Shown here: positions 18,186 to 58,779 of the stretch, piece after piece
How positions within the stretch are numbered: the first letter of the stretch is position 1
Layout of the letters: each line of letters opens with the position of its first letter
Made by a program: the position numbers and the translations under genes
NCBI RefSeq assembly: GCF_000215105.1
Contig: NC_015588.1
Location: 62,001 to 126,000 of the forward strand
Source: Isoptericola variabilis 225
Lineage (GTDB): Bacteria > Actinomycetota > Actinomycetes > Actinomycetales > Cellulomonadaceae
Direction: 5' to 3'
Length of the DNA: 64,000 nt
Notes under the pieces: generated by a model
What the model was told of the DNA's origin: nothing
What the model saw: the letters and a program-made list of their open reading frames with translations, nothing else
The model's database searches: none

Positions 18186-18229
18186 GTGTCAGAAAGCGGG
18201 TGGGCTCGAGCTCACCCGCTTTCTGACAC
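18186..18229. repeat. 44-bp palindrome with perfect 17-bp arms (TGTCAG ends)
   Basis: The arm at 18186-18202 is the exact reverse complement of 18213-18229. The 10-bp centre contains GCTCGAGC, so almost the whole 44 bp is self-complementary. It lies between the phosphatase gene and a 32-residue ORF, both on the minus strand. It could terminate the small ORF's transcript. Its TGTCAG...CTGACA ends and 44-bp length match the palindrome inside hrpA (56691-56734). Confidence 0.75.
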
Positions 18230-54277: not shown

Positions 54278-57200
54278 TCACCACCCGGACGGGGTGAGTA
54301 TCTTCCGGATCCTCTTCTCGCTGACGGGCCCGTCGGTGCCGAGCTGTTGCGCGAACAGAGACACCCGCAGCTCCTCGATGAGCCACCGCACCTCGGCGAG
54401 CTCGGCCGCCCGCGCGGGGTCGGCCGGCCCGGCCGCGTACGCGGCCCTCGCCTTGTCGTACGCCTCGGTCACGTCGTGCACGCGCCACGCGAGCTCGGCG
54501 TCCCGGTGGGGGCTCGCCTGCGCCTTCTCGAGCCGGTACGACGCCGCGCGCAGGTAGCGCACGAGGTGCGGCAGCCGGCGGGGCGGGGTCGCGGAGACGA
54601 ACCCGTCGTGGACGAGCGTCGCGACGTGGTCGCGGATGTCCTGCAGCGTGTTGAGCAGGGCAAGGGAGGACGACGAGCGCACCTCGCCCTCGATCGTCCG
54701 CCACGCCGACAGGGCGGCCACGACGTGCCCGACGACCCGGTAGATCTCGTCCTCCAGGTGCTGGCGGACGAACGCCTTCGCGTCGTCGTACGAGTCGGCG
54801 TCCCGGATCTGTACGGCGACGGGTCCGCCGGTCGGCGTGCCCGGCGCCTTCTCGGCGTCCGGGCTGGTCAGCGCGGTGACCGCGGCCAGCTGCAGGTCCG
54901 CGACGAGCGCGTCGGTGTTCCGGTACGGCGCCGCCGCGAGCGTGAGCGACTGCTTCGCCGTCCACCGCGACGTGATGCGCCCGCTCTGCAGGCCGGTCTG
55001 CGCGAGCAGCAGCCGCCGCACACCCGCCGCATGCCTCGCGTCCCGCTCCGCGGCGTCGGCCAGCACCCGCAGCGCCACCGTGGGCTGCCCCTTCGCGTCC
55101 TCCTCCTCGACGACAGCCGGGTAGCCGCGCACGACGACCCCGCCCCCGAGGTCGGTCGACACGGCGTCCGGCAGCCGCCCGTCCGGAAGGTCCGCGGGCC
55201 AGGAGGAGAGGTTCGAACGCTCCGCGACCACGGCGGAAGGCGACCCGGACGACGAGGCCGACGAGGCGGCGTCGGACGGACGTCCAGGCTGGCCGGGCCT
55301 GGCGGGAGCCGGGCTCGCCGCACGCGACCGAGCCTCCTCGAGAGCAACCCCCACAGCACCCTTGACCGCAGCCCGAACGGCCGCCTCGGCCTTGGCAGCC
55401 AGCCGCTTCTGCAGCGCCACGAGGTCCTTCGACTCGTCGACGACGACGGTCTTGGCACCCCGCCGCTCCTCGACGCGGAACGTCATGCGCAGGTGCGCGG
55501 GCAGCCGCTCGACGCGCTCGGCGTCCCACACGTCGTCGGGGATGACGACGTCGCGCAGGGCCCGCACGGCGCGCGAGAACTCGACGTGGAAGGGCGAGGC
55601 CATGTCGCCCGCGCGCGTCATGTCCTCCCACGAGGGCGTGTTCTCCCGCAGCCAGCGCGCGACGGCGGCACCGACGTCGGGCGCGGGCACGAGCTCGCGA
55701 CGCACGGCCTTGGGCAGCGAGCGGATGGTCGCGACGCAGAGCTCCTCGAGCAGGCCGGGGACCATCCAGTCGAACCCGTCGGGCACGACGCGGTTGAGGA
55801 TCGACAGGGGGATGTGGACGGTGACGCCGTCGGCGTCGGTCCCGGGCTGGAACTGGTAGGTGAGGGGGAGCGTGACCTCGCCCTGCGTCCACGCCTCGGG
55901 GAACTCGGACGTGTCGACGGCGGAGGTGTCGACGAGCTGGTCGAGCGTGAAGGTGAGCAGGTCGGGATTCTCGCGCTGCGCCGTCTTCCACCACCGGTCG
56001 AAGTGCCGCGCGCTGACGACCGATGCCGGCACGCGCTCGTCGTAGAACGCGAAGAGGTCGTCCTCGGACGCGACGAGCCCGCGCCGGCGCGAGCGCGCCT
56101 CGAGCTCCTCCGCCTCGGCGAGCAGACGGCGGTTCTCCGCGAAGAAGCGGTGGTGCGTCGTCCACTGGCCCTCGACGAGCGCGTGCCGGACGAACATCTC
56201 GCGCGCGGCCTCGGGGTCGACCTTCGCGTAGAGGACCTTGCGGTCGCTCACGATGGGGATGCCGTAGAGCAGCACCTTCTCCGTGGCCATGGCCGCGCCC
56301 TGCTTGGACGACCAGTGCGGGTCGGAGTACGTGCGCTTGACGAGGTGCGCGGCGAGCTCCTCGGCCCACTCGGGCTCGATGCGCGCGACGTCGCGCGCCC
56401 ACAGTCGCGACGTCTCGACGAGCTCGCCCGCCATGATCCAGGCCGGCGGCTTCTTGCTCAGCGGCGAGCCGGGGAAGATCGCGAACCGCGCCCCGCGGGC
56501 GCCGAGGTACTCGTTGCGCGCCCGCTTGGCGGCCTGACGCAGCGCGCGGGCGCGCGCCTCGCCGCGCAGGTGCGCGACCGACGACGCCTTGATCTCGCCC
56601 GTGTCCTGCATGCCGATCTGGCTGAGCAGCCCCGCGAGCAGCGCGCGGTGGATCGTGTCGCCGTCCCACTCGAGCGTGTACTTCTCCGAGCTGTCAGGCT
56701 CAGGCTGGTCCATACCCCGGCCTGGGCCTGACAGGTCGCCAGAGCGGGCCGAGGGCCGGAACGACATGTCGATGCCCAGCGGCTTGGCCATCTCGCGCAG
56801 CTGCGCGACGACGTCCTGCCACTCGCGGATGCGCAGGAAGTTGAGGTGCTCCGCCTTGCACATGCGCCGGAACGCGGACGAGCCCATCGCGTGCTGCTGC
56901 GCGCGGACGTACTCCCACAGGTTGAGGTACGTGAGGAAGTCGGACCGCGGGTCGGTGAACCGGGCGTGCTGCTGGTCGGCCTGCGCGCGCTCCTCGGCGG
57001 GCCGCTCGCGCGGGTCCTGGATCGACAGCGCGGCGGCGATGATCGCGACCTCTCGCGCGACGCCGAGCCGCGAGCCCTCGATGATCATGCGCGCCAGGCG
57101 CGGGTCCATGGGCAGCTGCGCGAGCGTGCGCCCGACGTCGGTCAGCCGCGTCCGGCCGTCCTCCGTCTCCAGCGCGCCGAGCTCGGTGAGCAGCTGCACG

Positions 57201-58756
57201 CCGTCGCGCACGGCCCGCGTGTCGGGCTTCTCGACGAACGGGAAGCGCGCGACGTCGTCGGGCGACTCGACCACGCCGACGGAGATCATCTGCAGCAGCA
57301 CCGACGCGAGCGAGGTGCGCAGGATCTCCGGCTCGGTGTACTCGGGGCGGCGCTCGAAGTCCTCCTGCGAGTACAGCCGGATCGCGATGCCGTCGGCCAC
57401 GCGCCCGGACCGCCCGGAGCGCTGGTTGGCCGAGGCCTGCGAGATCGGCTCGATCGGCAGCCGCTGGACCTTGGTCTGCTTGGAGTAGCGCGAGATGCGC
57501 GCGGTGCCGGGGTCGACGACGTAGTGGATGCCGGGCACGGTCAGCGACGTCTCGGCGACGTTGGTCGACAGCACGATGCGCCGGCCGGGGTGCGACTGGA
57601 AGACCCGGTGCTGCTCCGCCGCGGACAGCCGCGAGTACAGCGGCAGGATCTCGACGTGGTCGGGACGCTTGGGGTCGCGCACGCGCTCGCCGAGGTGGCC
57701 CTCGAGCGCGTCGGCGGCGTCGTGGATCTCGCGCTCGCCCGAGAGGAACACGAGGATGTCGCCCGGCCCCTCGGCCATGAGCTCGTCGCACGCCTCGACG
57801 ATGCCGGTGACGAGGTCCTTCTCCTCGCCCTTCTTCTTCGCGGGCGCGTCCGGGTCGGTGTCCGGGGACAGCGGGCGGTACCGGATCTCGACGGGGTACG
57901 TCCGGCCCGAGACCTCCACCACCGGTGCGTGGTCGGGCAGCACGTCGACGACCGCCTCGGGCGCCCCGCCGATCTCGGCGAGGTGAGCGGGGGAGAAGTG
58001 CGCCGCGAACCGCTCGGAGTCGATCGTCGCCGACGTGATGATGAGCTTGAGGTCCGGCCGGCGCGGCAGCAGGCGGGACAGGTAGCCCAGCAGGAAGTCG
58101 ATGTTGAGCGACCGCTCGTGCGCCTCGTCGATGATGAGCGTGTCGTACGCGCGCAGCTCCGGGTCGCGCTGGATCTGCGCGAGCAGGATGCCGTCGGTCA
58201 TGACCTTGACGAGCGTGTCCTCGCTCGACTCGTCGGTGAACCGCACCTGGTACCCGATGACGCCGCCCAGCTCCGTCCCGAGTTCTTCGGCGATGCGCTC
58301 GGCCACGGAGCGGGCCGCGATGCGCCGTGGCTGGGTGTGCCCGATCTGCCCCGCGCGCCCGCGGCCCAGCTCGAGCGCGATCTTCGGCAGCTGCGTCGTC
58401 TTCCCCGAGCCCGTCTCGCCCGCGACGACGACCACCTGGTTCTCGCGGATCGCGCGCGCGATGTCCGCGCGCCGCGCCGAGACCGGCAGCTGCTCGGGGT
58501 ACGTGATGGGCGGCACGACGACGGCGGCACGTGCCTGCGCGGCGCGCTCGAGCTGGGCGGCGCTCACCCGGGGGGTGCGGACGCTCGTCGAACGGTTCGG
58601 GCGGTTCCGTCGCTCGGGGCCGCCGCGCTGCTGCGGGTCCTGGGCGTTGGGGCCGCTCTGGCCCCCGGCCGAGCCACGACCCCGGCCGCCGCGACGGCGA
58701 CGGCGCGCACCGCCGTCGCCGGCGGGCTGCTGGGGGGAGGAGGGCTCGGTACTCAC
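54278..58756 (-). CDS. hrpA: ATP-dependent RNA helicase HrpA
   Basis: 1492 residues from GTG 58756. DEAH-box helicase: Walker A VVAGETGSGKTTQLPKI, DEAH in TLIIDEAHERSLNIDFLLGY, motif III SATI, and motif VI QRSGRSGR. Winged-helix, ratchet and OB-fold parts follow. The long C-terminal HrpA-specific region ends LRVSLFAQQLGTDGPVSEKR. The N-terminus is a Gly/Arg-rich disordered stretch. In the middle, between AKPLGIDM and EKYTLEWDGDTIHRALLAGL, an insert SGDLSGPGRGMDQPEPDSS is encoded by a 44-bp palindrome (56691-56734). HrpA resolves stalled or structured RNA and collided ribosomes. Confidence 0.95.
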   Translation of the reverse strand: MSTEPSSPQQPAGDGGARRRRRGGRGRGSAGGQSGPNAQDPQQRGGPERRNRPNRSTSVRTPRVSAAQLERAAQARAAVVVPPITYPEQLPVSARRADIARAIRENQVVVVAGETGSGKTTQLPKIALELGRGRAGQIGHTQPRRIAARSVAERIAEELGTELGGVIGYQVRFTDESSEDTLVKVMTDGILLAQIQRDPELRAYDTLIIDEAHERSLNIDFLLGYLSRLLPRRPDLKLIITSATIDSERFAAHFSPAHLAEIGGAPEAVVDVLPDHAPVVEVSGRTYPVEIRYRPLSPDTDPDAPAKKKGEEKDLVTGIVEACDELMAEGPGDILVFLSGEREIHDAADALEGHLGERVRDPKRPDHVEILPLYSRLSAAEQHRVFQSHPGRRIVLSTNVAETSLTVPGIHYVVDPGTARISRYSKQTKVQRLPIEPISQASANQRSGRSGRVADGIAIRLYSQEDFERRPEYTEPEILRTSLASVLLQMISVGVVESPDDVARFPFVEKPDTRAVRDGVQLLTELGALETEDGRTRLTDVGRTLAQLPMDPRLARMIIEGSRLGVAREVAIIAAALSIQDPRERPAEERAQADQQHARFTDPRSDFLTYLNLWEYVRAQQHAMGSSAFRRMCKAEHLNFLRIREWQDVVAQLREMAKPLGIDMSFRPSARSGDLSGPGRGMDQPEPDSSEKYTLEWDGDTIHRALLAGLLSQIGMQDTGEIKASSVAHLRGEARARALRQAAKRARNEYLGARGARFAIFPGSPLSKKPPAWIMAGELVETSRLWARDVARIEPEWAEELAAHLVKRTYSDPHWSSKQGAAMATEKVLLYGIPIVSDRKVLYAKVDPEAAREMFVRHALVEGQWTTHHRFFAENRRLLAEAEELEARSRRRGLVASEDDLFAFYDERVPASVVSARHFDRWWKTAQRENPDLLTFTLDQLVDTSAVDTSEFPEAWTQGEVTLPLTYQFQPGTDADGVTVHIPLSILNRVVPDGFDWMVPGLLEELCVATIRSLPKAVRRELVPAPDVGAAVARWLRENTPSWEDMTRAGDMASPFHVEFSRAVRALRDVVIPDDVWDAERVERLPAHLRMTFRVEERRGAKTVVVDESKDLVALQKRLAAKAEAAVRAAVKGAVGVALEEARSRAASPAPARPGQPGRPSDAASSASSSGSPSAVVAERSNLSSWPADLPDGRLPDAVSTDLGGGVVVRGYPAVVEEEDAKGQPTVALRVLADAAERDARHAAGVRRLLLAQTGLQSGRITSRWTAKQSLTLAAAPYRNTDALVADLQLAAVTALTSPDAEKAPGTPTGGPVAVQIRDADSYDDAKAFVRQHLEDEIYRVVGHVVAALSAWRTIEGEVRSSSSLALLNTLQDIRDHVATLVHDGFVSATPPRRLPHLVRYLRAASYRLEKAQASPHRDAELAWRVHDVTEAYDKARAAYAAGPADPARAAELAEVRWLIEELRVSLFAQQLGTDGPVSEKRIRKILTPSGW
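56691..56734. repeat. 44-bp palindrome inside hrpA
   Basis: CTGTCAGGCTCAGGC (56691-56705) and GCCTGGGCCTGACAG (56720-56734) are 15-bp arms with one wobble, around a 14-bp centre. It encodes an insert between two conserved HrpA blocks. Ends TGTCAG...CTGACA and total length equal those of the intergenic palindrome at 18186-18229. Confidence 0.75.
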
Positions 58757-58779
58757 GACGTCCCATTCTCTCAAGCGGG

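Follow-up and report, generated by a model that had tools for sequence, protein, structure and literature searches.

The palindrome within the hrpA gene of Isoptericola variabilis 225 belongs to a family of dispersed DNA units of fixed length (44 nucleotides (nt)), each consisting of two inverted half-sites with common outer ends and a variable interior. A search of the genome (G000) with the pattern TGTCAG-N30-CTGACA retrieves 98 exact copies, and 104 if one mismatch is permitted, while the control retrieves none. The explanation that we favour, and to which we would give about an even chance, is a REP-like family whose units are paired sites for a putative protein; acting in trans, this protein would spread or rewrite the copies, and genes would tolerate them where they remain in frame.

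The hrpA palindrome and its host gene

The window, that is, the whole stretch of 64,000 nt analysed here, covers positions 62001-126000 of a single contig of 3,307,740 bases. Within it, hrpA occupies 54278-58774 on the minus strand and encodes, according to its open reading frame (ORF) and Pfam matches, a helicase with a DUF3418 C-terminal part. The palindrome, defined by the pattern and by copy searches, lies in frame at 56691-56734 (no strand assigned), as an initial sequence-only reading of this DNA had proposed. It is a unit of type A (T/C-TGTCAG-N30-CTGACA-A/G), which half-site counts divide into a first half-site of 22 nt on the plus strand (56691-56712) and a second, inverted, of 22 nt on the minus strand (56713-56734). 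Three additional nucleotides on each side, recognised from flank counts over 46 type A copies, extend the unit to 50 nt (56688-56737, no strand assigned). On the plus strand these read GAG...GTC here and GAG...CTC in most type A copies.

The element corresponds to residues 689-703 of an open frame of 1506 residues and is flanked by a match to HA2_C (565-624) and another to an OB-fold (716-818). The encoded peptide would read ...SGDLSGPGRGMDQPEPDSSE... The hairpin had been described as perfect, which proves too strong: its arms, of 22 nt each around 8 nt, are only 86% complementary. Folding of the 131 nt around the palindrome gives -73 kcal/mol compared with -53.3 ± 3.8 kcal/mol for shuffled sequences (z -5.16; 0 of 200 shuffles). 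Identity with an Rfam family was rejected since no match exceeded the gathering score at six loci; with E values up to 1, window positions 56500-56950 give a single weak match, to snaR-A (18.6 of 98 bits).

With a 500-residue query, the HrpA of the window is nearest to Isoptericola proteins (90% to I. halalbus in the best segment). The suggestion that the blocks on either side of the element are normally close together holds only in part: the linker is short in several Isoptericola relatives, but it measures 20 to 87 residues in 53 of the 55 relatives in which it is readable (55 of 80 loci examined). In I. halalbus and Krasilnikoviella flava the hrpA linker contains a 44-nt palindrome with the same ends (one end base is changed in I. 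halalbus) and other interiors. Some relatives thus have another palindrome at this linker and others a short linker, so that the case which the sequence-only reading had named as speaking against an inserted element, with the same residues in all relatives and no palindromic DNA, does not apply. Relatives had also been suggested as a source of the empty site and of any target duplication. The comparison of relatives provides short linkers, but no clean empty site, the linkers differing in length and sequence, and no target duplication is apparent at 75-90% identity. In Isoptericola luteus NEAU-Y5, hrpA is present on two contigs (L045, L046), as is another copy-bearing stretch (L146, L151); this is duplicated or redundant sequence.

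A family of paired half-sites

Clearly, the ends are strongly conserved: 98 of the 104 copies show no mismatch across the 12 end bases. We have located 91 of the 98 exact copies, in position order up to 3,034,914, and five of the six with one mismatch. Three subfamilies (A, B and a rare C) have these ends and the 44-nt length in common and differ in their interiors. Type A carries a GTATAC-like centre, and the pattern CTGTCAGGC-N26-GCCTGACAG with up to three mismatches finds 44 matches in the genome (0 for the reversed control). Type B is as large as type A and has the interior GTGTCAGAA....GGTGGGC. A second copy in the window, identified by pattern search at 18186-18229 (G000:C1:80187-80228; no strand assigned), is of this type and lies outside genes according to the codon model. 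Type C, with the interior GTGACCC..GGGTCAC, is rare in this genome (L024:2285 and L204:1712). Types are assigned by a simple rule and a few copies are misplaced (L226:1268, L027:3405).

Spacing between close copies is also regular. In G000, 15 of the 16 spacings below 100 nt are 60-63 nt (the remaining one is 54 nt), and all 11 are so in a second genome, G148, which is taken as Isoptericola sp. BMS4. At L027:3360-3448 a half copy adjoins a full copy and perhaps represents a broken pair, and a region of G167 (L166, G167:C1:59000-71000) includes six copies in 9 kb, intergenic by the codon model.

Half-site and spacing counts are based on 100 positions. Searching the whole genome for type B half-sites with up to two mismatches yields 57 in forward and 58 in reverse orientation (2 and 0 for the control). 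Half-sites standing alone are not in excess, and type B thus gives no sign of a larger parent element. Those at G000:C1:2926250 and 3083116 have no partner among those listed and are perhaps copies with one decayed arm.

The two arms of a copy vary almost independently. For type B, 553 cells are paired compared with 551.5 ± 8.1 after dealing the arms anew among copies, and 448 of 1000 such reshufflings reach the observed value; the corresponding figures for G148 are 244, 236.4 ± 7.1 and 180 of 1000. Type A, for which 46 of 48 rows were used in the arm and flank analyses, displays a small excess, mainly at positions 9 and 14 (533 of 690 cells versus 507.1 ± 7.6; 1/1000). This value, above 999 of the 1000 reshufflings, fits some pairing constraint or a common descent of the copies. 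With independent arms in type B and almost independent ones in type A, a copy resembles a pair of half-sites, inverted relative to each other and bound by a putative protein, more than a stem whose strands covary.

The near-invariant positions are TGTCAG, then G, CA and GC (type A) or AA and GGTGGGC (type B), and the set is identical in copies within and outside genes. Other inner positions are divided between two bases (for example, A13, which is C or G, and B10-B12), and at the free positions the shares within and outside genes differ somewhat at A10, A13, B13 and B14. Judged from these base counts, the constraint pattern is that of a predicted dimeric protein site. Selection on the peptide does not explain the motif because copies outside genes carry it too.

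All five copies that were folded form stable hairpins (z -4.6 to -6.3). No T run follows the hairpin: from +3 onwards, T occurs at any one position in at most 8 of 46 type A and 12 of 50 type B copies. In 46 type A copies the three flanking bases are G (40), A (41) and G (44) on the left side and C (43), T (42) and C (41) on the right side, which makes them inverted (GAG..CTC) and not direct repeats. The tags GTAG and CGTC are absent from the counts for 96 type A and 100 type B half-sites, in which the outer motif is TGTCAG.

Searches for a mobilising partner were negative. The REP transposase domain Y1_Tnp (PF01797) was found in none of 19 carrier genomes (control: 5 of 14), nor in a separate search of the I. 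variabilis genome itself, and movement of the family by such an enzyme was rejected on this basis. Similarly, one type A copy used as query matched nothing in plasmids or phages, and its derivation from either was rejected. The strict type A pattern gave no match across a set of genome contigs, from which I. variabilis itself is perhaps absent. A search of copy surroundings for a common neighbouring gene that might act as mobiliser returned only orthologous neighbourhoods, and it was through these that the shared places described below were recognised.

Copies within genes

Assignment of copies to genes relies on a codon model trained on the window and not on annotation. Under a strict rule (both flanks coding, with a single frame running through without a break), 22 of the 101 copies read in G000 lie within genes (12 A, 8 B and 2 C), in 19 open frames. 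A wider rule increases this to 33 of 101 by adding, by hand, 11 copies with another copy or a linker as one flank. For these 11 the best frame is 0 on both sides; ten are below threshold on one side only and L219:1346 is near threshold on both. Eight of the 101 copies have coding sequence on both sides but in different frames and are counted as gene ends (another such case occurs in G020).

All in-gene copies use frame 0 (22 of 22 strict, 33 of 33 wider). In other genomes, 14 of the 96 copies read are in genes under the strict rule, in six genomes, and all 14 are in frame 0. Of 202 strand-copies, 190 are open in frame 0, 195 in frame 1 and 1 in frame 2. Since frame 1 is as open as frame 0, stop codons alone cannot account for the choice of frame. 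In frame 0 the peptides are (E)LSG..PDNS for type A and VSE..W..AH..SDT for type B. The proposal that the hrpA palindrome resembles the in-frame palindromic elements of Rickettsia is supported: the further copies for which a search had been advised do exist, 104 in the genome, and 22 to 33 of the 101 read lie in genes, all in one frame.

Pfam matches were obtained for 17 of the 19 host frames, the others being described by sequence reading where possible. Besides HrpA, the hosts are a LUD domain protein, a biotin carboxylase (MCC type), an AMP-binding protein (MenE-like), a TPP enzyme (MenD-like), an Fpg/Nei-type glycosylase (one B and one A copy), MoeA (A and C), a molybdopterin oxidoreductase, a PrmC-like protein (no Pfam match), a helicase C-terminal protein, a GDSL lipase, HemD, a heavy-metal P-ATPase (B and A), GH67, an HRQ1-type helicase, a PIG-L protein, a dynamin-like protein, an SMC hinge and a frame without match (L233). 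Neighbouring copies within one gene have spacings divisible by three (54, 63, 141 and 186), as required if both are read through. The insertions may occupy harmless loops, although the host linkers seen to be variable are only those of HrpA, of the PrmC-like gene and of the two Nei-type sites.

Copies outside genes and position on the chromosome

According to the gene-call table, 36 of the 101 copies in G000 lie between tandem, 16 between convergent and 9 between divergent genes, with 3 at an edge; a further 15, in addition to the strict 22, are within called genes. More than half of the non-gene copies (34 of 64, counted from the same table) are no more than 20 nt from the 3' end of a gene.

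The copies are not distributed over the whole chromosome. Motif matches place dnaA and rpmH at opposite ends of the contig, dnaA at the first base side and rpmH at the last. A copy-free gap extends from 1,325,971 to 1,985,328 (659 kb, 0.199 of the genome; one of the 104 copies, with one mismatch, is not located). Because the exact copies were located in order up to 3,034,914, the remaining exact copies are outside it. The centre of the gap (1,655,650) and the antipode of the contig start (1,653,870) are 1.8 kb apart, and a gap this large arises in 2 of 20000 random placements of 69 clusters, using a position set in which one entry nearly duplicates another and one copy has two mismatches in its ends. 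Samples totalling 144 kb from within the gap have no palindromic copy with up to two end mismatches. Next in size is a gap of 171 kb, within which the origin lies. The largest gap of G148 measures 797 kb; mapping of a few orthologous copies places it on the far side, and it is not significant alone (1306/20000).

The terminus is taken to be the antipode of dnaA. GC skew was uninformative in the stretches sampled for it, and 18 stretches sampled within the gap have no dif-like motif. A ParB gene beside the origin scores 215 bits and is thus below the Noc cut-off of 315.

Distribution and shared places in relatives

A search with GTTGTCAG-N16..46-CTGACAAC finds matches in 25 of 221 genomes of the family, in 11 of 25 genera (the control occurs once in each of two genomes). 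Nearly all the matches listed are 46 nt long, with an interior typical of one or a few close genomes. Among those listed, interiors are alike in G135 and G137, in G020 and G021, and in G166, G167 and G169. Type A proper (up to three mismatches) is restricted, among the 221 genomes, to G000 (42 copies) and G138 (two diverged copies). A wider pattern is found in 32 of 396 genomes drawn from the order, a draw that lacks some carriers of the 221-genome survey: G000 has 98 matches, G179 87, G167 60, G148 48, G169 12, and G141, G289 and G315 7 each. The other 24 genomes have one or two each, near the control level of 0-1. In the places listed, G179 (87) and G289 and G315 (7 each, from another family of the order) have interiors of their own.

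As in hrpA, alignment of 11 further loci reveals other interiors in the same place. The clearest case is the PrmC-like gene: at one and the same base a type A copy is present in G000 and a type C copy in G138, and the linker is short in the other 10 of the 12 genomes read (18 found). The Nei-type gene has, in its first linker, a type B copy in G000, a copy of its own type in G148 and a third type in G144, and 15 of 18 genomes have none. In the second linker (17 genomes read), G000 has type A and G138 type C. This linker starts GAGTCGTCGGACC in G148 (L252) and GAGCCGTCGGACC in G139 (L251), resembling a decayed copy end, which suggests that copies may be lost by decay.

When compared with 102 copies read elsewhere, 24 of the 101 copies in G000 have a partner. 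The copies with a partner are distributed as follows: G148 12 of 24, G138 5 of 6, G135 3 of 4, G137 2 of 4, G141 4 of 7, G143 2 of 14 and G167 2 of 10. None were found in G168 (9 read), G159 (7), G020 (4), G179 (4), G021 (2), or G166, G169 and G144 (1 each). These counts come from a non-random sample, the loci having been chosen for carrying a copy or, in four cases, for the gene (L041, L247, L252, L256), and from a loose rule of nearness: L018:1562 is wrongly paired with L247 (it has further partners in G148 and G144), and L008, which matches the same loci as its relative L211, may be a paralogue. A gene tree covering 17 of 18 genomes has 2 of 14 inner branches well supported and does not separate inheritance from hot spots. 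Both inheritance with rewriting and repeated insertion at a limited number of permitted places fit the shared places.

Possible origin and function

The favoured explanation may be set out as follows. Each copy would present two inverted half-sites at a fixed distance, with TGTCAG outside and a variable 15-nt part inside, and a putative trans-acting protein would recognise the pair as a dimer; close pairs of copies would lie about six helical turns apart. The outer hexamer, common to all carriers, would be accompanied by an inner part acting as a changeable specificity. A transposase- or recombinase-like protein would then spread the unit and replace older interiors, leaving one or a few interiors per genome, even at places shared with other species. 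The places where copies persist would be the vicinity of gene ends and, inside genes, the single frame encoding (E)LSG..PDNS or VSE..SDT. Against this, no candidate protein was found among the families and neighbourhoods searched, no transposition event was seen, and a selfish mobile repeat is not expected to avoid 659 kb opposite the origin. The small covariation of the arms in type A, the lack of a clean empty site and the missing sign of a type B parent element also count against it.

That gap is the main attraction of the strongest rival, which is possible but clearly less probable: the copies would be chromosome-addressing sites of a nucleoid-organising or division-timing protein (Noc/SlmA-like), selected on both arms, kept from the terminus and located in genes where tolerated. 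The near-invariant ends beside free inner positions and the nearly independent arms are as expected for such sites, the gap centred on the antipode of dnaA is rare in random placements (2/20000), G148 has a largest gap of 797 kb, and Noc and SlmA sites are themselves palindromic and underrepresented in Ter (PMC4726725). However, Noc sites are of 14 bp (PMC4726725) rather than 44 nt, copies are missing from many relatives and few in some carriers, the G148 gap is not significant by itself, the terminus is placed by its position opposite dnaA with GC skew uninformative, the ParB gene is below the Noc cut-off, and the turnover of interiors is left without explanation. The rewriting dimer and the addressing sites are mutually compatible. 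They would be combined in a rewritable address system of about 100 paired half-sites of 44 nt, kept from the terminus, with a putative reader whose inner specificity changes between species, sites rewritten in place to match, and in-gene sites (smc, hemD, hrpA) carried along as translated inserts; we regard this combination, too, as conceivable rather than probable.

The other candidates appear unlikely to various degrees. Fixed inverted ends, dispersed copies and a patchy presence would suit MITEs, in which the terminal inverted repeats of an insertion sequence (itself lost since, or located elsewhere in the genome) have become fused, an unlikely origin given that all type B half-sites listed are paired except the two mentioned, that flanks are inverted and not direct repeats, that interiors differ at the same places across species and that one type A copy matches no plasmid or phage. 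Selection as RNA hairpins, either terminators or mRNA stabilisers which sometimes land in genes, is less probable again: the folded copies are stable and many lie just 3' of genes, but there is no following T run, one third of the copies are in genes, the length is fixed and the arms are nearly independent. These same arms, together with the absence of Y1_Tnp and of a GTAG/CGTC tag, and 22-nt half-sites at a fixed distance instead of stems of 5-13 bp with tails (PMC3733652), make it still more doubtful that these are REP elements of the usual kind, mobilised by a RAYT (Y1) transposase. This is in spite of high-copy palindromes, close pairs and the preference for 3' ends, and of families that differ between genomes with some copies in genes, as in PMC3733652. 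Finally, HrpA linkers do vary in length among relatives, but the idea of a chance hairpin in an ordinary variable linker was rejected on copy number (104 versus 0 in the control); with the single frame of the 22 strict in-gene copies, it retains a negligible probability.

Comparison with known systems

No such family is described for Isoptericola or its relatives in the titles and abstract openings that the literature searches listed. The family adds an actinobacterial group to those with in-frame palindromes (19 open frames in one genome under the strict rule). As orthologous places carry different interiors, replacement in place versus repeated insertion can be asked about directly. Two further questions become testable: by what means such repeats spread when the transposase of REPs is lacking, and whether palindromes of this dispersed kind are selfish or serve to organise the chromosome. 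A caution also follows for protein annotation: proteins of these bacteria would, if the copies are translated, carry inserts of about 16 residues with a sequence set at the DNA level.

The GTAG/CGTC REPs (PMC3733652) are alike in being many dispersed palindromes in genome-specific families, with paired units, mostly 3' of genes and some within. Unlike these, the present family has no tag, no Y1_Tnp in the 19 carriers, a unit fixed at 44 nt and made up of two 22-nt half-sites, interiors that differ at orthologous places, and a region opposite dnaA that is avoided. The words Actinobacteria, Isoptericola and Cellulomonas are absent from the main text of that paper. Noc and SlmA sites (PMC4726725) are similar in that they, too, are palindromic, bind a protein (putative in our case), number in the tens and are kept from the terminus, but here the sites are 44 nt long, occur in frame in genes and differ in interior between species. 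In the mitochondria of Nematomorpha (PMC6649704), palindromes are also found within translated genes; there both arms encode conserved protein parts, whereas here one dispersed family occupies linkers and places outside genes.

In-frame palindromes are known from Rickettsia and some REP-rich bacteria (PMC3733652). Compared by description only, the Rickettsia elements differ in that our host is an actinobacterium of high G+C (68-79% in sampled stretches) and in that they lose repeat identity over time (PMC6649704), while the motif here is sharp. They are alike in the following: palindromic DNA in frame in many unrelated genes, and also outside genes (PMC3733652, PMC6649704), with all in-gene copies of the present family, in unrelated genes, read in one frame.
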